DNA from: a virus | Strand: one strand, 5' to 3' | IMG/VR virus record: IMGVR_UViG_3300032070_000031 | Span: 1-21,037 of that record | DNA length: 21,037 nucleotides | Shown: piece after piece, positions 1 to 13,215 of the stretch | Layout: each line of letters begins with the position of its first letter | How positions within the stretch are numbered: the stretch's first letter is position 1 | Made by a program: the position numbers and the translations under genes | The notes under the pieces: model-generated | Seen by the model: only the letters and a program-made list of their open reading frames with translations | The model's database searches: none | What the model was told of the DNA's origin: nothing

Positions 1-1346
1 ACCCGTTTCAAACTTTCCTGAATCATGCCTGCAACCATCTTCAAGTTTTGCGTGCTGCCGCCTCCGCCGCCTATTACCGCGACGAGAGGCGCATGAAACT
101 CGAAACGATAATTAATTGGGGTGCCAGCGTCAATGATAATGTCCGTAGCCTTGCCGCCTGCAGCAAACTGCGCAGCTGGTCCAAGCAAACTGGTAGGCAT
201 AATTTGTCCTGGACCTAAACCATACACGGGTCCGGTACCGCCCAAGTTTTGCCAATCATACCCCCTTGCCGCTTCTGCAGGTGCTTCAATTTTGCGCATA
301 AGTTCATCAAGAACGTTGACGGCATCTTGCAAATCAATTTTCATGGCATTCGCAAAACGGACAGCAACCGCAATTGCGCGGAGCATACTACTTGATTCCC
401 ATGCTTTCGTGTAAGCCTCAACGAAATCTTTGCCGGCTTCACGTGCTTTTTCCACGTTGTAACTACGGATCAAATTGTCAAAAACGCGTTGGTTTACATC
501 TTGCGTCTTTTGAAGTTCAACATTCACGCCCTTGATACGATCCATTGTGTCCTGCCATCGTTTCTGCCAAACTTCAATCCACGGTGCTTGTGTTGACACG
601 ATGCTTGTTGTTTGGGTTAATGTGGTGTTTAAATTTTTCAAAGCTTGGGTGTAATCAGTCACATTAGCCGTTGCACCACTCGGGCCGCTTGGCAACGTTA
701 TGCCAGGCGGCGTCAATAAACCGCTTTTGCCAATTGTTGGAAACTCTGGCATTCCAAACTGTTTTCGCAGACTTAACGCGAACTCACGGACTTGTGGTGC
801 AATGACTATTCCCGCAAGAGGAATTGCAGCTACGGCCAATGAAAGTCCAATGGCAGCAGCTTTAGTTAATTCTAATTCGGTGCGAAGATATTGAATAGTT
901 GTCTTTAGTCCCGTGAGTCCAGTGATCACTGTTGGGATAACACTGACAGCCATCGTCATCATTGTTTTACGTTGATTTTCAGATGCCATATCTGCTCTTT
1001 CAGTAGCTACTTTGTAACTTTCTTGCGCGAGCATCAATCGGTTCTGAGCATCTATTGCTTGCGCACTGCCTTCCCCGTATTTCTCAAGGACTTTGTTCAA
1101 GTTGTTCTGAGCATCACGGACCGACTCTGAGCTTTTCATCACGACGAGGTTTGCACGATCTAGTGCTACTTGGCTATCTCTGACGCGGTCAACCATGTTG
1201 TAAAGGTTAAGCGCGCTCGAAGCAAGGTTGTTGAAACCAAGAACGAGGCTCTTGGCATTGCTGCCCACCTTGCTAATCGTACTGCTGGCATTATCGACTG
1301 CGTTGAGATCAATTTGAAGACGTGTACCTGAAAGACCGTAACTCAT
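1..1346 (-). CDS. Tail tape measure protein, N-terminal part (runs off the left edge)
   Basis: Open for about 448 codons from the ATG at 1346 to the window edge with no stop, so only the N-terminal part is present. Tape measure proteins set tail length and are threaded through the tail tube. The first 40 residues are followed by an Ala/Asn/Gln-rich, helical coiled-coil stretch (about residues 45-120). Next come two hydrophobic segments (about 125-140 and 160-185) of the kind tape measures use in genome delivery, then more coiled coil, and a Gly-rich patch near residue 425 just before the cut. The ATG directly follows the TGA of the frameshift extension of the tail chaperone (TGAATG), the position a tape measure holds in siphoviruses. 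The call rests on position, length and composition rather than a recognised motif. Confidence 0.8.
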   Translation of the reverse strand, partial: MSYGLSGTRLQIDLNAVDNASSTISKVGSNAKSLVLGFNNLASSALNLYNMVDRVRDSQVALDRANLVVMKSSESVRDAQNNLNKVLEKYGEGSAQAIDAQNRLMLAQESYKVATERADMASENQRKTMMTMAVSVIPTVITGLTGLKTTIQYLRTELELTKAAAIGLSLAVAAIPLAGIVIAPQVREFALSLRKQFGMPEFPTIGKSGLLTPPGITLPSGPSGATANVTDYTQALKNLNTTLTQTTSIVSTQAPWIEVWQKRWQDTMDRIKGVNVELQKTQDVNQRVFDNLIRSYNVEKAREAGKDFVEAYTKAWESSSMLRAIAVAVRFANAMKIDLQDAVNVLDELMRKIEAPAEAARGYDWQNLGGTGPVYGLGPGQIMPTSLLGPAAQFAAGGKATDIIIDAGTPINYRFEFHAPLVAVIGGGGGSTQNLKMVAGMIQESLKR

Positions 1347-1529
1347 TCAAACCCTTCTACGATTCACTTTCGCCGTGAACCAGGCAGCCCACTTCAAAAG
1401 AAAAGAAACCTGGAAAGGCGTCAGACTCCCAACATACTCGAGTGTGTACCCGTACTCATGTGCGATAAAACCAATCACTTGCGCGTCTTCATTGTAGTCT
1501 ACGAAACTGCGGATTTCTTCTCCGGTGGC
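1347..1529 (-). CDS. Tail assembly chaperone extension (gpT-like), reached by -1 frameshift
   Basis: A 60-codon reading frame with no start codon of its own, in the -1 frame relative to the chaperone gene upstream, ending in TGA directly before the tape measure ATG. It would be translated only if ribosomes slip back one base on the T TTT TTG run at 1529-1535, giving a fusion of about 177 residues. The encoded segment looks like real protein: it has acidic, aromatic and aliphatic residues in a balanced mix, a Trp-containing helix near the end (KWAAWF) and a basic tail (NRRR). Phage lambda makes gpG and gpGT in this way between the tail tube and tape measure genes, and the layout here is identical. 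The frame and slip site are seen directly; use of the slip is inferred. Confidence 0.75.
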   Translation of the reverse strand, partial: ATGEEIRSFVDYNEDAQVIGFIAHEYGYTLEYVGSLTPFQVSFLLKWAAWFTAKVNRRRV

Positions 1530-1879
1530 AAAAAACCTTCAGCTTCGCTTAGGAGTTGCAGGATCCTCGCACCCTTGCCCATTGGAAACTTCTTGACGTC
1601 CTCAAGAGTCAGTCCAGGATAAGCTTTCTCAAGCATTTTCCAAAGCATCATAGTCGAATACTCTTCGTTTGTCTTAGCCTTACTCAAATCAGCAGTGTCC
1701 TCGAGCACCAAAGGATAATAATAGATTTCTTCGTCGCCATCAAGAACCATGTGTTTCTGAGTAGCTTTTTTCACAAGCATCTTCGGGTCGAATTTCTTTG
1801 CGGCAACACGGCCTTCGGCTTCTTCCTTTTCGAATAGGCGTTTTCCTCTTTCAGCAGGGCCTTCAGGTTTTTCAGTCAT
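1499..1879 (-). CDS. Tail assembly chaperone (gpG-like), zero-frame product
   Basis: Encodes 126 residues from the ATG at 1879, which has GAGG eight bases upstream. A TTG at 1915 would add 12 residues but overlaps the tail tube gene and has a poorer ribosome site. The protein is small, charged and largely helical: an acidic/basic N-terminus, a short beta-like patch with three consecutive Tyr residues, then a helical C-terminus. Tail chaperones coat the tape measure during tail assembly and are not part of the virion. It is recognised by position (between tail tube and tape measure) and by the slippery heptamer near its 3' end, not by a sequence motif. The zero frame stops at TAG (1499), 9 codons after the slip site. 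Confidence 0.72.
   Translation of the reverse strand: MTEKPEGPAERGKRLFEKEEAEGRVAAKKFDPKMLVKKATQKHMVLDGDEEIYYYPLVLEDTADLSKAKTNEEYSTMMLWKMLEKAYPGLTLEDVKKFPMGKGARILQLLSEAEGFLPPEKKSAVS
1529..1535 (-). promoter_or_regulatory. Programmed -1 frameshift slippery heptamer T TTT TTG
   Basis: On the minus strand the zero frame reads GGT TTT TTG CCA. The heptamer T TTT TTG fits the X XXY YYZ rule, so both tRNAs can re-pair one base back. After slipping, translation continues in the 60-codon frame that ends at 1347. A weak hairpin is possible just downstream (CGGA, 7-nt loop, TCCG). A strong stem or pseudoknot is not obvious by eye. Confidence 0.7.
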
Positions 1880-1901: not shown

Positions 1902-2300
1902 CTAATACGTGCCAAGCGTTAATGATGCGCCTTCGCCAGAACCGTTCTCGATGACGATACCGTTCTGTTCATCTCGCCAGCCATGGTGGAAAATGATTGC
2001 GTTGGACAACGTGTATTTGGGCTGTCCTGTGGGTGTGCTGTTTGCAGGTCCGAGAATGATCGTCATCTTTGTTCCAGCGAGAACCTGAGCTGCATACGTT
2101 GTATCGATGAACATTTTCTCGAAGCTGAACTTGAAACTCTTGTTTCCACTCTCGAGGACAGCAGGGATATCGCTTGTGAATTTGTAGTCTTTGATAACAT
2201 CTGCGTCCATGTCGAATGTGACGCCTTTGATGTAGCCAGCTTCAGCACCGTTGATTGTGATGCTGCCGTTTCGTCCTATTACTGGTGTTGTATTTGGCAT
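1902..2300 (-). CDS. Major tail tube protein
   Basis: 132 residues from an ATG; a GGAGG lies about 13 bases upstream. The sequence is beta-rich and typical of tail tube folds: an N-terminal strand pair with a turn (RNGSITING), a GYIKGVTF strand, a FKFSFEKMF strand, and a C-terminal strand with a Gly-rich loop (NGSGEGASLTLGTY). Such proteins stack as hexameric rings around the tape measure. At 132 residues it is at the short end for tail tube proteins, so it is probably the bare fold without decoration domains. It lies directly upstream of the tail chaperone, as in siphoviruses. The alternative, a minor tail component of the same fold, is less likely because no other tube candidate is present. 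Confidence 0.75.
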   Translation of the reverse strand: MPNTTPVIGRNGSITINGAEAGYIKGVTFDMDADVIKDYKFTSDIPAVLESGNKSFKFSFEKMFIDTTYAAQVLAGTKMTIILGPANSTPTGQPKYTLSNAIIFHHGWRDEQNGIVIENGSGEGASLTLGTY

Positions 2301-4634: not shown

Positions 4635-6383
4635 TCAAGTCAACTGAGGATAATCAATTCTTTTCTGGTAGAGAGCATACCAATAGAGCGTTCTTGCGTC
4701 AGTTGCTCCGACCGGCGTTATCGTGCCAGCGTTGTTGATCCAGAAGTCTATTTGGAAATGCGTCGTATTCATGGTCAAGATCGTGGGTTCTATGAGAAAG
4801 GCCGTCGAGTTGATGTAAGCAGAACCGGCGATCTTTACGAAGGTTACGTTTGGCGTGACTCCCAGATTATGTTTGATCCAGGTTCCGTTGATGCAAGACG
4901 TTTCGTTCCCCAAGTTCTCGAGTCGGATGTCTGCGCCTGCCACTCTTTGTTTGACCTGGAGATTCAGATAGTAATCGATATCTCGCCAAGTCAGGACCGG
5001 GAGTCCCCAGCTGCTCACGTTGCCCATGCACTGGTTGAACCAGTAACTCGTCATTGTTCCATGAAAAGTCAGGAAAGCGAGTTCTCCGTTCGAACCCGAG
5101 CCCGTACTGTTAACTGCATACCAGGCAGCAGCGGCGATGACTCCTCCGGCAGCTTTGGTCCCGTTGAAGTTTGACTCTGTCGGGAAGTAGCAACTGAAGA
5201 TGTCCGAGATGTAATTCCACGTTTGATTAGGCCATGGTTTGTAGTTGCTCCAGCCAATGTAGTTGTAATATTGCCGTACCATCTCAAAGTTTGCTGGATG
5301 CCCGGAGGGGAAGCCCATCATGTCAATACGGACGTTCAGGTTTCTTTCGATCCAATCCTTGCTCACTCGGTATTCTTGATCTTGGTCTGCCAGAGTGATG
5401 GTTGCCCCGGTCATGTCCTTGCTAAGATATCCGTGACTGTAGAAACTCCAGCCCGCATCACGCATTTCTTTCAGATTAGTGAGAGTGACATAAGACGTAT
5501 TTGTGGCTCCAGCTTGTTCTACCCAGCGAGAAACGACTCCTTCGCTGCCTCTGAAGCCCCAGATCGACGTCATGTTCTTGAAATACGTGCTGTATTGGAT
5601 GTAGAGGGTATCATCGAAGCAGATCATGAAAGCAGCTTTGCTCACGGCATTCAAATAGCCTTGAACTTCAATGTCTGCGTACGGCGGCACATTCGGATAA
5701 TAGTTGAGAGTGAAATTTCCTCTGAGAACGACTTTCTCAGTTCCTTTGGTCCCATTGTTCAAGTGAGAGAAGGCATATTGAACGGCCAAGGTCTGATTTG
5801 TGTCCTGATAGGCGACTAGTCCACTGCTGCAGTTCTTGACTTTGACCGTGGTGCCATCGAAATCGACAACATAAGCGACTTGCTGATAGGGGTTTGCAAG
5901 GACGTCGGTCCTGTTTTCACCATTGAAAAAGAAGCTATTCGAGCCGTAATGGTTCCTTATTCCTTGATAGTCTTCATCAATAGAAATGTTAGGGCCATAA
6001 GTGACCCCCCCGGCTAGAGTGCAGCCTTTCAGAAGGATCGTTCCACCACTCGTCAGATTTCCGACTGCGGCCACCTGGACCGCTGTCTTGTTGGTGCTGA
6101 ACCAATTCAGCTTCCCGTCGGTCCCGTTCTGCAAGCAATAATAGGCGTCGATGGGGCTGACGATGTAGTCATAGGGTTTCTGGAGCCCACTGAGGCTGCT
6201 GTTGACCGGTGCATCGAGTCGGGCTTCAATCTGGTTAAGACGCTCTTGAATGGTGATATCTACCGTGACGCTTGCTCCGAAATAAGCTGCGACGCCTGCA
6301 CAAAGCAGAATAGCACACAACATCACGGTTTTAGACCATGTCAAACCGTTAAGACTGATCCTTTGTCCCTTACTTTCGACCAT
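4635..6383 (-). CDS. Membrane-anchored, sequon-rich spike with degenerate polysaccharide deacetylase (NodB-like) domain
   Basis: 582 residues from the ATG at 6383 (GGTGA upstream); an upstream ATG at 6395 and a TTG at 6458 are in frame but overlap the previous gene more. Order (numbers from this start): a transmembrane segment at about 19-39; a region (65-235) with two ALQ-like / GGTILLKG-type repeats resembling the entry to a pectate-lyase-like beta helix; a NodB-like core at about 245-470; and a lectin-like beta domain at about 495-575 with HNLGVTP. In the core I see FDD (256-258), SHG (His 317) and a late FHG (His 441). The second metal His of the usual H-x3-5-H motif reads Ser or Lys, and the R-P-x-Y-G motif reads FPSG. 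Activity is therefore doubtful and glycan binding is possible. About 21 N-X-S/T sequons suggest surface exposure. It lies between capsid and connector genes, which fits a head fibre or spike. Confidence 0.7.
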   Translation of the reverse strand: MVESKGQRISLNGLTWSKTVMLCAILLCAGVAAYFGASVTVDITIQERLNQIEARLDAPVNSSLSGLQKPYDYIVSPIDAYYCLQNGTDGKLNWFSTNKTAVQVAAVGNLTSGGTILLKGCTLAGGVTYGPNISIDEDYQGIRNHYGSNSFFFNGENRTDVLANPYQQVAYVVDFDGTTVKVKNCSSGLVAYQDTNQTLAVQYAFSHLNNGTKGTEKVVLRGNFTLNYYPNVPPYADIEVQGYLNAVSKAAFMICFDDTLYIQYSTYFKNMTSIWGFRGSEGVVSRWVEQAGATNTSYVTLTNLKEMRDAGWSFYSHGYLSKDMTGATITLADQDQEYRVSKDWIERNLNVRIDMMGFPSGHPANFEMVRQYYNYIGWSNYKPWPNQTWNYISDIFSCYFPTESNFNGTKAAGGVIAAAAWYAVNSTGSGSNGELAFLTFHGTMTSYWFNQCMGNVSSWGLPVLTWRDIDYYLNLQVKQRVAGADIRLENLGNETSCINGTWIKHNLGVTPNVTFVKIAGSAYINSTAFLIEPTILTMNTTHFQIDFWINNAGTITPVGATDARTLYWYALYQKRIDYPQLT

Positions 6384-6798
6384 TCTGTTCACCATATAAC
6401 TGGATGATTTCCAAGAGGGCAGTAACTTTCTTGCCCATCCAAGACTGAAGTTTCTCAAATCGCCTGTCTTTTCCCATCGCCAAGAAATACACGGTCACAG
6501 GCACAACCGGAGGTAACTTGCCCTTGATGATCTTGGGCCACCTGCACACTCCGCAGGATCCGTGGCGTCGCTTCAAATTCTGACCGCACACATCAACACA
6601 GTCAGGCACGCCAAGAAGGCGCATCAAGAAAGTACGTTTGACACGCTTCCGGTCCGGAACTGAATAGACAGCAAAACTATCGCCCTTCTCGTCGACGGCG
6701 ATTAGAACGTTAGGATTCAACTTCAACATGACTGTTAGACCATGAGCTAGAGCTAAGAGCTCTGCGCGACTCATCTTAGTAAGGTCCAACAACTTCAA
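6370..6798 (-). CDS. Uncharacterised protein with a four-Cys motif, downstream of the capsid gene
   Basis: 142 residues from a TTG start (AGGA close upstream); an ATG at 6774 is an alternative. No family is recognised. Residues 67-85 contain C-x3-C-x10-C-x2-C, which could bind zinc. Around it are basic residues (DRKRVKRTF, LKRRHG). The N-terminus has an amphipathic helix and a strand pair (NVLIAVDEKGDSFAVYSV). The C-terminus is helical, and its last codons overlap the start of the spike gene, so the two may be co-translated. Location between capsid and spike genes suggests a head-associated or spike-assembly role, but this is only context. Confidence 0.55.
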   Translation of the reverse strand: MKLLDLTKMSRAELLALAHGLTVMLKLNPNVLIAVDEKGDSFAVYSVPDRKRVKRTFLMRLLGVPDCVDVCGQNLKRRHGSCGVCRWPKIIKGKLPPVVPVTVYFLAMGKDRRFEKLQSWMGKKVTALLEIIQLYGEQNGRK

Positions 6799-9276: not shown

Positions 9277-9300
9277 ACGTGACAAGTTACGTGACAAGTC
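9277..9300. repeat. Perfect 12-bp tandem repeat at the start of the endonuclease gene
   Basis: TACGTGACAAGT occurs twice head to tail. The first copy contains the GTG taken as start codon and the second holds an alternative in-frame GTG at 9291. The repeat could be a binding site for autoregulation, or a duplication left by insertion of the gene. Confidence 0.7.
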
Positions 9301-9848
9301 ATACATTAAGGATCGATCTTCCGACAGCTGAAATTCTTCAGCTTTATCTAGCAGGCGTATCGGAAAATAATCTTGCGAAGCGATTCCAAACTTCACGCGG
9401 TGTTATCCGAAGACGCCTCCTCCGCGCAGGAATAGTCTGTCGTGGACGAAGTCAGGCTGAACTCCTCAAGTGGACTAAGATGAGCCAAGATGCTAGGGCT
9501 CGCCAAGTAGAAGCTGCTCATGAAGCAAAGCGCGGAACAAATGAACCAAGAGACAAACTTTGGAAAGTAAATCCCACTGAAAGCGAGACGTACTTTATCG
9601 GTTTAGTCAATAAGTATCAATGGCCTTTAGCATACTGTGGATCTGGTGGCGTCGTAATCAACGGTTGTAACCCAGATTTTATTCACAAGACCCAAAGGAA
9701 AGTTCTTGAAGTCTATACGGGAGCAAAGCATCTAGAGAAAGGCGAACAGTACGCTAAGGCAGGTTATGAATGTCTTTTCCTTAACATGAGGCAAGCGGAA
9801 CGATTCATAGTTGAGGAAATTCAACAATTCCTACAATCCGCCCCCTAA
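9279..9848 (+). CDS. Free-standing endonuclease: HTH plus Vsr-like nuclease domain (probable homing endonuclease)
   Basis: 189 residues on the plus strand, the only rightward gene within the late block. Residues 16-52 form a resolvase/Myb-like HTH (EILQLYLAGVSENNLAKRF, then SRGVIRRRLLRAGI). Residues 95-185 resemble the Vsr/EDxHD type of PD-(D/E)XK nuclease: acidic residues at 101 and 103, NPDF with Asp 133, KVLEVYTG with Glu 144, His 151, then the AGYECLFLN strand typical of the family. Such genes sit in phages as homing endonucleases. The gene breaks the operon between head genes and overlaps the 3' end of the MuF gene by 18 bases, tail to tail. The start may be the second GTG (9291). No intron or intein is apparent in the neighbours. 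Confidence 0.7.
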   Translation: MTSYVTSHTLRIDLPTAEILQLYLAGVSENNLAKRFQTSRGVIRRRLLRAGIVCRGRSQAELLKWTKMSQDARARQVEAAHEAKRGTNEPRDKLWKVNPTESETYFIGLVNKYQWPLAYCGSGGVVINGCNPDFIHKTQRKVLEVYTGAKHLEKGEQYAKAGYECLFLNMRQAERFIVEEIQQFLQSAP

Positions 9849-10019
9849 TAATATTAAGAGGCATCTACACGATGGATGCACGTTCGGATACCAAACCCAA
9901 TCGTTAGGACCCTTAAGCAAATACGGAAAGGTTCTCTCAGCATCTTCATCACTAATTATCTGCCTGTCATGTTTCAAACAAGCATCACAAGTCTGGTCAT
10001 CCGTTATTGTGACATACAT
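9831..10019 (-). CDS. Minimal MuF-type (SPP1 gp7-like) minor head protein
   Basis: 62 residues from the ATG at 10019, 16 bases after the portal stop. The frame stays open upstream inside the portal gene to 10124, but that part is out-of-phase portal sequence. The signature of the C-terminal MuF domain is complete: TDDQTCDAC (Cys 11, Cys 14), a short helix, WYPNVHPSCRC (His 48, Cys 51, Cys 53) and a hydrophobic end strand. In Mu gpF and SPP1 gp7 this metal-binding domain ends a protein of 200 or more residues with a helical N-terminal part, which is missing here. It lies directly after the portal, the usual place. The Shine-Dalgarno site is poor, so the start is uncertain; the end overlaps the endonuclease gene. 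Confidence 0.65.
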   Translation of the reverse strand: MYVTITDDQTCDACLKHDRQIISDEDAERTFPYLLKGPNDWVWYPNVHPSCRCLLILLGGGL

Positions 10020-10022
10020 GAA

Positions 10023-10040
10023 GCTGAGGTTGGACTCAGC
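10023..10040. repeat. Hairpin at the portal stop codon
   Basis: GCTGAG, six bases, CTCAGC: a perfect 6-bp stem spanning the portal TGA (10036-10038) and ending 4 bases before the chosen MuF ATG. On the mRNA it would hide the region just ahead of the MuF start, which lacks a good ribosome site, so reinitiation after portal translation is plausible. Confidence 0.5.
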
Positions 10041-11436
10041 CAACAGATCCAGAAGCAACGCCGTCTTTGTCAAGATCCTTAGCGAGTTTTTCATACAATT
10101 CCAACCGCTTCTTGCTTTCAACACTCAGGTTCGCAGCAGTTCCAGCAGGAACAAAACGAGCATCAATCACAGTGTTTTTCCCTGCATCTTCCGGATATCC
10201 AAGCCGCTGACGAGCCCAACCAGGACTCACAATCGCATGCTCAATCTCGCCCTGCAACATCTTACTCAAAGCTTCTTTGTCCTCGTTTTTGAGGGGTCTC
10301 CAAACAAGCTTCACGCGTTTCGAGGTCTCCACAAGAGAGAAAATCAGTTTCTCATGCATCCGTTTGATGGCTCGCTGATAATCTCTGACTTCAGCCTCAA
10401 GAATCCGCTCCTGATACTCAGCTGTAGCCATCGTACTTGTACCGCCAAACCCTAAAGCTGCCTCCGGCACCCCTAGTCCAGCAACAAGATTACGTGTGAA
10501 ATGATTCAACAACGGATCAATCGTCTGTCGACCGCCAACACTTGCACTCTGATAGACTTCCTCAATGCCCTCGATCGTCCCGTCGTTGAAGACATCTTCT
10601 CCAGGCTTCCGATTTATGATACCGTTCTTAATCCGGTCAAAAGTTGGTTTGTCGACAGGATTCGCTGCACTTCCAATATTGATGAGCAAAAGAGGATCTG
10701 CACGACGTCTAGCAATCCAAGGCAGCTTCTCCTCCATGAAAAGAAGGGACTTTACTGTTGGAAGTACCCGACGGAGACCACTAATGCCGAAGATTTCCCA
10801 GGGTCGAACCCTGAATTTCAGCGGTATCATCTCGTCTGACTTGATCGTTTCTTTCTTGCCGAACTCAGGCTCGTAAGTGTACTCGATTACTTTTTTTTGC
10901 TTGTCAAATTTCAAGCCGACTTTCATGGGGTTTAAGGGCTCAAGTGAGATTTCCTGGTCTTTGTGGACCCGCCAATACATTGTGCCAAAAATCAGAGCCG
11001 CAAAGGTTCCATCACGGAAAACCGTGTCAGCCTCAATATCTATGAGGAGTTGCTCAACAGTCTTCTTGCTCTTCTCGTCCTCGCATTCCAGATCGTAACC
11101 CATTTGCCAAATCATGAACTGCTTGATGTCAACTGCCCGGGCAACATAGGGAACATAGTCATAGGAATCTAGATAATCTGGAAAATCATTCAGATCATCC
11201 GGATATTTCGCACCACCAACTGTGCCGATACTGACCCTGGCAGCTGTCGCCGGATTAACTGAAGCCTCGATCAGTTTGGCTGCCTGAAGTCTCCCTCGGA
11301 TTCTCGTTTCGGAACTCTGCTGGGACTGCTCGGAACTTGCAATAAGAAAGGCTCCAGACACTTTACCCTCTACAGCAACGAGCCCCTGCAATTTAGGTTT
11401 TTCAGGATCCTTCTTTTTCCTGTGCAGCCAACCCAT
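10036..11436 (-). CDS. Portal protein
   Basis: 466 residues from the ATG at 11436, which shares its A with the terminase TGA (TGATG) and has GGAG ten bases upstream. It fits SPP1/HK97-type portals: a basic, variable N-terminus (1-90); the core with DYLDSYDYVPYVARAVD helices; wing strands (ISLEPLNPMKVGLKFD, VIEYTYEPEFG); the conserved stem region with the FGISGLRRVLPTVKSLLFMEEKL helix; and GLGVPEAALGFG, the loop pattern seen near the crown. The C-terminus carries a long helix and a charged tail. Portals form the 12-subunit ring through which DNA is packaged. Gene order terminase-portal-MuF is standard. Confidence 0.88.
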   Translation of the reverse strand: MGWLHRKKKDPEKPKLQGLVAVEGKVSGAFLIASSEQSQQSSETRIRGRLQAAKLIEASVNPATAARVSIGTVGGAKYPDDLNDFPDYLDSYDYVPYVARAVDIKQFMIWQMGYDLECEDEKSKKTVEQLLIDIEADTVFRDGTFAALIFGTMYWRVHKDQEISLEPLNPMKVGLKFDKQKKVIEYTYEPEFGKKETIKSDEMIPLKFRVRPWEIFGISGLRRVLPTVKSLLFMEEKLPWIARRRADPLLLINIGSAANPVDKPTFDRIKNGIINRKPGEDVFNDGTIEGIEEVYQSASVGGRQTIDPLLNHFTRNLVAGLGVPEAALGFGGTSTMATAEYQERILEAEVRDYQRAIKRMHEKLIFSLVETSKRVKLVWRPLKNEDKEALSKMLQGEIEHAIVSPGWARQRLGYPEDAGKNTVIDARFVPAGTAANLSVESKKRLELYEKLAKDLDKDGVASGSVG

Positions 11437-12851
11437 CAATTTTTATCTCCAACAGTTCCGAAATCAACAAGACCCAACGTCATCTTCGGCTGCTTAACCG
11501 CAGCATACACAGCTAGGCACGTGGCCCAGAATCTATCATCATGCGAACCTTCCGGGTGACTGAATGTATAGATTTCACTCCCAGGCGGCTGCTCCCATTG
11601 CACGACGTTGAAATCAGCCTGAACGTCCTGATCGAAAGGCAATTCAAAGCGCCTTCTAGCCTGCTCAAGAGAGAGCGACTTGTCGCTTTCCCGGACAGTC
11701 ATCATCAATTGCTTCAATGCCATAGCCATGCCATGTTTAAGAGGCTGCGTAAAATCGATGCCGACGATTCCAGGAAAGCCAGCTTTGTTAATTTCCTCAT
11801 CCATCCCCTTTGTGCCAGTGTGATCGTAATAGACAGCTCTAACCTGCTTCCACCGATCGCAGATTGACTTAATATATGCCATCTGCGTCACGTAAGGAGT
11901 ACCTAGACCAAACTTTTTGCAGTGAACTAGCCGGCTGAAATCAGATTCTTTCTGAAGAATCGCCATAGCACCAGGATCTCTATCTCGCCCAAGATCCCAC
12001 CCTATGAAGAACTCACCTTGAAGATTGTCTTCAAACTTTGCAAATTCCAGTTGCTCATTTTGACATCGAATTATCAAGCTGCTCGGCAGAAAAGAAGTCT
12101 CGTCGTCGACGAAACTGCTTTCCATCTCACGCTTCCAACGCCAAGGATCACCAGAATACTGCTCCCGCATTACCTCAACCTGGTACGGATCCAGAGGACC
12201 ATTGGGTTTCTGCACTTCCTTCCAAGTCAAAAAGTACCGGGGAGGATCCCGCTCGAAAATGTTGCCGCTGAAGATTCGGAAGCTCTTGTCATAGCACATC
12301 TTGTAGTAGATGCTGTCTTTGTTCCAGGGCGTGCTTGCCACGTTGATCTGAACAGTCTGCGTAAGCGTCATAGGCAAGAGCGCGCTAAGCCACAGATCCA
12401 CATCTTGACGAACAAAGTTCATTTCATCAATACTGATCTTTCTGGGGCCATGGCCGCGGATCGTGAAAGGCTCCGGCGTCTCAGCAAGAATTATGGTACC
12501 ATTATTGATACGAATTATAGTCTGAAGTTCGCATTCAATGTAAGCATCATAAATCTCCGGGTCCATCCGCGCAAGATGCTCATGAAAAGCTTGAAAATAA
12601 ATCTCTTTGATCTGCTGAAACTTCGGCATAGTCACAATGATCGTGCAGTTCGCATTATGCATACCGAAATACAGGTCATCGCCAGACATCGTCATCGTTT
12701 TACCGGCGCGCCTAGGCCACCGCACAACCTTCAGAGCAGCTGGATCCTGAAGAAACTCAGCTTGATACGAGAACGGTTTGATCTTCAGAATCTTTTCGAA
12801 AAACTCAACCTTATCCACCGGGAGCGGAGGAAGTTCGCGTTTCTTGGCCAT
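11436..12851 (-). CDS. Terminase large subunit (packaging ATPase and nuclease)
   Basis: 471 residues from the ATG at 12851, which follows a GGAAAGGGGG run; an ATG at 12896 would add 15 residues and overlap the small subunit further. The ATPase domain has Walker A RWPRRAGKT (44-52), Walker B ISIDEMN (139-145) with catalytic Glu, and coupling motif ASTPW (172-176). The RNase H-like nuclease has Asp 286 (GWDLGRD), Asp 343 (YYDHTG) and the Asp pair 438-439 (SHDDR). All key residues are intact, so both functions are probably active. It pumps DNA into the prohead through the portal and cuts the concatemer. It overlaps both neighbours slightly. Confidence 0.95.
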   Translation of the reverse strand: MAKKRELPPLPVDKVEFFEKILKIKPFSYQAEFLQDPAALKVVRWPRRAGKTMTMSGDDLYFGMHNANCTIIVTMPKFQQIKEIYFQAFHEHLARMDPEIYDAYIECELQTIIRINNGTIILAETPEPFTIRGHGPRKISIDEMNFVRQDVDLWLSALLPMTLTQTVQINVASTPWNKDSIYYKMCYDKSFRIFSGNIFERDPPRYFLTWKEVQKPNGPLDPYQVEVMREQYSGDPWRWKREMESSFVDDETSFLPSSLIIRCQNEQLEFAKFEDNLQGEFFIGWDLGRDRDPGAMAILQKESDFSRLVHCKKFGLGTPYVTQMAYIKSICDRWKQVRAVYYDHTGTKGMDEEINKAGFPGIVGIDFTQPLKHGMAMALKQLMMTVRESDKSLSLEQARRRFELPFDQDVQADFNVVQWEQPPGSEIYTFSHPEGSHDDRFWATCLAVYAAVKQPKMTLGLVDFGTVGDKN

Positions 12852-13215
12852 CCCCCTTTCCAGGTTGCGCAACAATGTTTTTTGCCGTTGCTTCATTCAC
12901 AAGCATCTCAAGCTTAGCAAGGTCCTTGTCAATCTGTCTCTCATCAATCCCCTGAGCAATTGTATTCATGACTTGCGCAGCGTAAGTGGCAATTCGAGCC
13001 CAGATCTGGCGCTGCTTCATCGTTATAGGCTCTCTTTTGCCATCAGCATATTGAAACTTGTACGTGCCCTTCGCAAACGCAGACGCCATATCAAACAAGT
13101 CCTCAAGGCCTCTGACAGCTTTATTGCGCAAACGTTGAGTATCAAGGTTAAACGTCCTGCGCAACTGGAAAAAACGACGGGCTACCTGCGTTTTACGAGA
13201 CGTTCTACCGCCCAA
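12811..13215 (-). CDS. Terminase small subunit (probable)
   Basis: 134 residues from a TTG start with GGGGGGAG six bases upstream. The protein is basic at the N-terminus (SRKTQVARRFFQLRRTF), then almost all helical, including ITMKQRQIWARIATYAAQVMNTIA, and ends in a Gly/Ser-rich tail that overlaps the large-subunit start by about 40 bases. Small subunits bind the packaging site and are poorly conserved in sequence; the call rests on size, helical character, basic N-terminus and position directly upstream of the large subunit. No classical HTH is evident by eye. Confidence 0.65.
   Translation of the reverse strand: MGGRTSRKTQVARRFFQLRRTFNLDTQRLRNKAVRGLEDLFDMASAFAKGTYKFQYADGKREPITMKQRQIWARIATYAAQVMNTIAQGIDERQIDKDLAKLEMLVNEATAKNIVAQPGKGDGQETRTSSAPGG

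Follow-up and report, generated by a model that had tools for sequence, protein, structure and literature searches.

The window, i.e., the whole stretch of DNA analysed here, is a 21,037-base virus record (IMGVR_UViG_3300032070_000031) with structural genes on the minus strand. A gene coding for a 132-amino acid tail tube protein (1902–2300, minus strand; Pfam Phage_tube_2, E = 2e-5, below the curated cut-off) is the upstream neighbour of an ORF (1499–1879, minus strand) that starts with ATG at 1879–1877, ends with TAG at 1501–1499, and codes for a 126-amino acid product. Based on an alignment with 22 relatives, an AlphaFold2 model, and Foldseek comparisons, this product is taken to be a G-like tail assembly chaperone. 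A tape-measure-like gene (3–1346, minus strand) lies further downstream and runs off the end of the window; it was named by context, from its position and homologues, because it has no Pfam match above the cut-off. The order tail tube, G/T, tape measure, with the tail tube gene adjoining G, is the same in the window and in its relatives.

Within G, a slippery heptamer, T TTT TTG (1529–1535, minus strand), with UUU as the P-site and UUG as the A-site codon, is present in the codon context GAA GGT TTT TTG CCA. The position of the heptamer and its phase relative to the ATG at 1879 are as given in the initial annotation of this DNA. Past the slip site, the 0 frame of G continues through 1499–1528 (minus strand) and overlaps a −1 frame extension, T (1347–1529, minus strand). 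Read from 1529, the T extension codes for 60 residues (ATGEEIRSFVDYNEDAQVIGFIAHEYGYTLEYVGSLTPFQVSFLLKWAAWFTAKVNRRRV) and ends with TGA at 1349–1347, immediately followed by the tape-measure ATG at 1346–1344. The predicted G-T fusion is thus 117 + 60 = 177 amino acids long, with the junction EGFL-ATGEEI (in a longer form, ...ILQLLSEAEGFL-ATGEEIR). The length of the −1 frame, its end at the tape-measure ATG, the size of the fusion, and the gene order had all been read correctly in the initial annotation. The T extension can be reached solely via a −1 shift. The statement that T lacks a start codon is correct for the stretch ahead of the T core, but not for the conserved core itself, which contains the sole start codon of the window's −1 frame, a GTG at 1478–1476.

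The T domain was predicted by AlphaFold2 to form four helices (pLDDT 92), and the G protein to combine helices with a beta hairpin (pLDDT 81). When the G model was compared with viral protein models using Foldseek, tail assembly chaperones and phage proteins without a name made up most of the matches. The best matches to tail assembly chaperones had probabilities of 0.98–1.00 at modest E-values of about 0.02, and the second-best match was the tail assembly chaperone of Halobacterium phage ChaoS9 (probability 1.00, E = 0.018). At these E-values, the predicted G fold resembles those of tail assembly chaperones, one of them encoded by a halovirus. Fold searches of the PDB with the G and T models gave no significant match. 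At the sequence level, the window G did not match any of the curated tail-chaperone models above cut-off; its Pfam and PHROG matches were weak, looked spurious, and were set aside. Phage_TAC_7 (the P2 gpE family) weakly matched one of the 22 G relatives (E = 2e-4) and left the window G unmatched.

Several other features of the window were observed. The tape-measure gene is a mosaic: only its first 183 residues align with four close relatives (73–80%), and the entire stretch aligns at 92–93% with two other relatives. Between the capsid and head–tail connector genes, a gene at 4635–6458 (minus strand) codes for a protein of 607 amino acids that weakly matches polysaccharide deacetylase (E = 0.002); since the gap between capsid and connector genes is much shorter in several relatives, the gene looks like an accessory insert. 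The head gene block is interrupted by a 189-amino acid ORF in the opposite orientation (9279–9848, plus strand), which has no Pfam match and adjoins a short Mu gpF-like ORF (9831–10124). It is possibly a homing-endonuclease-like insertion that split the gene.

Conservation of the G/T junction and coding constraint on T

To collect relatives, the proteins encoded by G and by the capsid, tape-measure, and tail tube genes were used as queries, along with the T extension, and frames were analysed with profiles built from 22 relatives. In addition to the window, 68 distinct loci were recovered, 56 on virus contigs and 12 in proviruses of six Bathyarchaeia genomes, giving 69 distinct G/T junctions. 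At every one of the 69 loci, the T-like domain is offset by −1 from the frame of G, and an in-phase heptamer of the form X XXU UUZ (U UUU UUN, G GGU UUU, A AAU UUU, or C CCU UUU) is located at the junction. T TTT TTN alone accounts for 45 loci. It is overlapped by G GGT TTT at 14 loci and, as T TTT TTC, by A AAT TTT at four; G GGT TTT alone is present at four loci, while A AAT TTT alone and C CCT TTT alone are found once each. Complete T extensions are 52–68 residues long, and the 0-frame stop is located 4 to 35 codons past the slip site. In none of the relatives are G and T fused in a single frame, nor is the extension broken in any. We therefore consider the frameshift cassette to be real, since all 68 distinct relatives keep both the frame relation and the slippery heptamer, as proposed when the locus was first described as a −1 frameshift of the G/GT type.

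The background frequency of such heptamers is low. Of the 8481 codon positions that precede the site in these G ORFs, 5 had an in-phase heptamer with TTT as YYY; in other window genes, the count was 5 of 4178. This is a rate of ~0.1% per codon, versus 69 of 69 at the junction. On a tree of G-T proteins, at least ~22 changes of heptamer state were counted (an approximate figure, since the tree was a quick one and some of its forks are weak), and a valid slippery site is present in all 70 rows. Beyond the Bathyarchaeia set, C CCT TTC and A AAT TTC are the heptamers at this position in two extra distinct sequences from other Thermoproteota genomes. Three loci of non-Bathyarchaeia Thermoproteota (L179, L180, and L181) carry related cassettes, with a tail tube gene and G/T, that have these two sites.

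A different arrangement is seen at one Bathyarchaeia locus (L176; G085:C130:20000-39000). The G homologue encoded there has GGG TTT CTA in place of the heptamer and is not followed by T; a tape-measure-like ORF starts inside the end of G, overlapping the G stop codon. This locus, where T and the heptamer are both gone, is a natural negative control.

Substitutions in the T extension beyond the G stop were counted among close relatives, and were distributed as 52, 31, and 111 over codon positions 1, 2, and 3. In the group of the window, dN/dS of the T extension was 0.07–0.20, while the values for the other two frames were mostly 0.7–2.9 (extreme values of the L122/L125 and L108/L131 pairs and 'nan' entries, which stem from pairs that are almost invariant or were misaligned in an ungapped comparison, were ignored). 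Judged by these substitution patterns, the −1 extension evolves as a protein under purifying selection.

Host of the window virus

A relative of the window major capsid protein (MCP; 54% identity) is encoded in a contig of a Candidatus Bathyarchaeota MAG (G001), which also contains two integrase-like ORFs and a tRNA-Pro gene. When 257 Bathyarchaeia genomes were searched with the T profile, 12 loci were found in six genomes, two of them on one 2.2-Mb contig; the G profile returned the same loci plus the T-less locus L176. Five Bathyarchaeia genomes encode TerLs with 62–69% amino acid identity to the window TerL (11436–12896, minus strand), and the HerA-like ATPase of the window is 65% identical to one in a Bathyarchaeia genome. 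No match to the MCP or the tail tube protein was found among 50,697 phage records. Together, the proviruses in Bathyarchaeia, the TerL and HerA homologues, and the lack of a phage match for the capsid and tail tube proteins indicate that the window virus is very probably archaeal, as originally suggested. The host assignment is drawn from relatives and gene exchange. A CRISPR spacer link was sought by a DNA search of the 257 Bathyarchaeia genomes; this revealed gene homologues (the best with 77% identity over 1 kb) and no confirmed spacer-like match. The sole spacer-like candidate region was rejected, as no repeats were present there.

The converse possibility, that the virus infects bacteria rather than archaea, appears very unlikely. 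It could be argued from the weak family matches of the window proteins, and from the fact that TerL matches those of distant bacterial phages (21–25% identity). Yet proviruses with the same cassette reside in Bathyarchaeia chromosomes, the TerL and HerA matches there are far closer, and the MCP and tail tube protein are unmatched in the phage records.

Some host genomes carry more than one proviral tail cassette: two related ones are present on the 2.2-Mb contig G053:C1 (L173 and L174), and four in G089, which suggests frequent multiple infection or integration. TerL of the window is only ~34% identical to TerLs of virus relatives whose capsid proteins are 95–97% identical to that of the window, pointing to a swap of the packaging gene.

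Proposed synthesis of the G-T fusion

We consider it highly probable that the locus is a tail chaperone cassette of a Caudoviricetes virus of Bathyarchaeia, or of closely related Thermoproteota, with G-T made by −1 frameshifting. The simplest reading is that two tRNAs slip in tandem by −1 at U UUU UUG. We infer the occurrence of the shift and its efficiency, as well as the binding roles of the products, along the following lines. Most ribosomes would finish G at its stop codon, yielding the 126-amino acid chaperone. In a minority of ribosomes positioned at U UUU UUG, the P-site tRNA-Phe and the A-site tRNA-Leu would both slip back by one base onto UUU UUU, and translation in the −1 frame would produce the 177-amino acid G-T fusion. 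By analogy with lambda (reviewed in PMC5009743), G may coat the tape measure protein, and a few G-T molecules may recruit tail tube subunits via the helical T domain. In the same analogy, G-T would start polymerisation of the tube at the right ratio.

Stimulatory elements were looked for around the heptamer. Folding of the RNA past position 1529 had been proposed in the initial annotation; no downstream structure was found, as 65-nt segments past the heptamer had a mean z of 0.08 (n = 69) versus −0.11 in the control. Internal Shine-Dalgarno sequences were not enriched either (mean match 3.2, versus 2.98 in controls). The heptamer thus appears to work without these helpers. A missing wyosine pathway was rejected as a cause of slippage, since 204 of the 257 Bathyarchaeia genomes, those of the provirus hosts among them, encode a member of the TYW1 family.

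Three other explanations of the frame arrangement were weighed. RNA polymerase, rather than the ribosome, might slip on the T run and generate mRNAs coding for the G-T fusion. There are six T's in the window and seven or more in 13 relatives, a length that is prone to slippage in some organisms. However, the T runs of relatives with G GGT TTT, A AAT TTT, C CCT TTT, C CCT TTC, or A AAT TTC are just 3–4 long, and such short runs argue against polymerase slippage as a general mechanism. At every site, moreover, the X XXY YYZ pattern and its phase with the codons are kept, features relevant to ribosomes but not to the polymerase, and we regard this explanation as highly improbable. Slightly less credible still is that T is translated alone, without a fusion, through internal initiation or through reinitiation (translational coupling). 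The GTG at 1478–1476 inside the window T core and the close overlap of neighbouring genes would be compatible with it. Yet in 61 of the 69 loci there is no ATG, GTG, or TTG ahead of the T core glutamine, which argues against independent initiation; the exceptions are scattered and not at a conserved place, and the conserved heptamer would be left unexplained. Lastly, the frame change could have resulted from a sequencing error or decay of a disrupted gene, for which the homopolymer speaks and nothing else does. The probability of this is negligible: it is refuted by 69 distinct sequences that all keep this frame relation, by the conservation of G, and by the purifying selection acting on the −1 frame.

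Beyond ribosomal frameshifting as such, we moderately favor a more specific reading. The cassettes may represent an old chaperone lineage of Bathyarchaeia/Thermoproteota viruses that relies on a bare U-rich heptamer with no RNA-structure or Shine-Dalgarno helper, in hosts that have the wyosine pathway (which acts on tRNA-Phe). The heptamer would turn over between U UUU UUN, G GGU UUU, A AAU UUU, and C CCU UUC under selection for slipperiness, and would be lost only together with T.

Relation to known tail chaperone cassettes

The heptamer of lambda, G GGA AAG, differs from that of the window, and the ratio in lambda is 30:1. The lambda G/G-T system is otherwise similar to the window cassette in having a small chaperone gene directly before the tape measure gene, and a short −1 extension with a slippery heptamer close to where G ends (PMC5009743), although curated lambda-type chaperone models do not match the window G. 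The −1 frameshifting of tail chaperones is widely conserved in long-tailed phages (PMC5009743). In phage P2, E and E+E' are made from gene E with a T6G slippery site (Christie et al. 2002, as described in PMC3931495). As far as that description goes, P2 shares with the window the identical T6G site, a −1 extension without a ribosome binding site, and the location in a tail operon (PMC3931495). Unlike the window virus, P2 is a bacterial myovirus; the window G has no sequence match to P2, and no tail sheath gene was recognised in the window.

The initial annotation overstated the novelty of the finding for archaeal viruses, since −1 frameshifted tail chaperones have been reported for HVTV-1 and HCTV-1, -2, and -5 (PMC8211752, PMC5009743), and the tail chaperone of Hardycor1 is also frameshifted (PMC7911831). 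These archaeal viruses share with the window the gene order and the −1 frameshift. The sites reported for haloarchaeal viruses, in contrast, are G GGA AAx or A AAA AAC and not U-rich (PMC5009743). In the GenBank annotation of HCTV-2, a joined chaperone is present between the tail tube and the tape measure, and its A AAA AAC site was recovered by our scan. The HCTV-2 extension is far longer than the 52–68 residues of the window-type T, and comparison of G and T profiles with HCTV-2 gave no significant match. The ChaoS9 chaperone is just 11% identical to the window G despite the fold match. Judged by their description, Fuxiviridae and Kunpengviridae, the Caudoviricetes of Bathyarchaeia (PMC10848311), are head-tailed viruses with the same host class as the window virus; the main text of PMC10848311 does not mention frameshifting or chaperones, and the other literature on Bathyarchaeia viruses that was consulted is likewise silent on frameshifting.

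As the trick itself is known from lambda, P2, and haloarchaeal viruses, the novelty of the finding is moderate. What is added is the extension of tail-chaperone frameshifting from haloarchaeal viruses to viruses of uncultured Bathyarchaeia and of other Thermoproteota, the occurrence of U-rich sites in archaeal viruses, and comparative support that is far denser than in the few earlier archaeal cases. The T-domain profile can serve to find fusions that are otherwise unannotated, and to correct gene calls in archaeal virus genomes. The ~70 natural slippery sites, together with the lineage that is devoid of T and the heptamer, are ready constructs for studying codon-pair slippage on archaeal ribosomes, and this large natural series makes the mechanism directly testable. 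If the reading of an old bare-heptamer lineage is true, these viruses would hold a naturally occurring mutational series in which −1 frameshifting by archaeal ribosomes could be followed.
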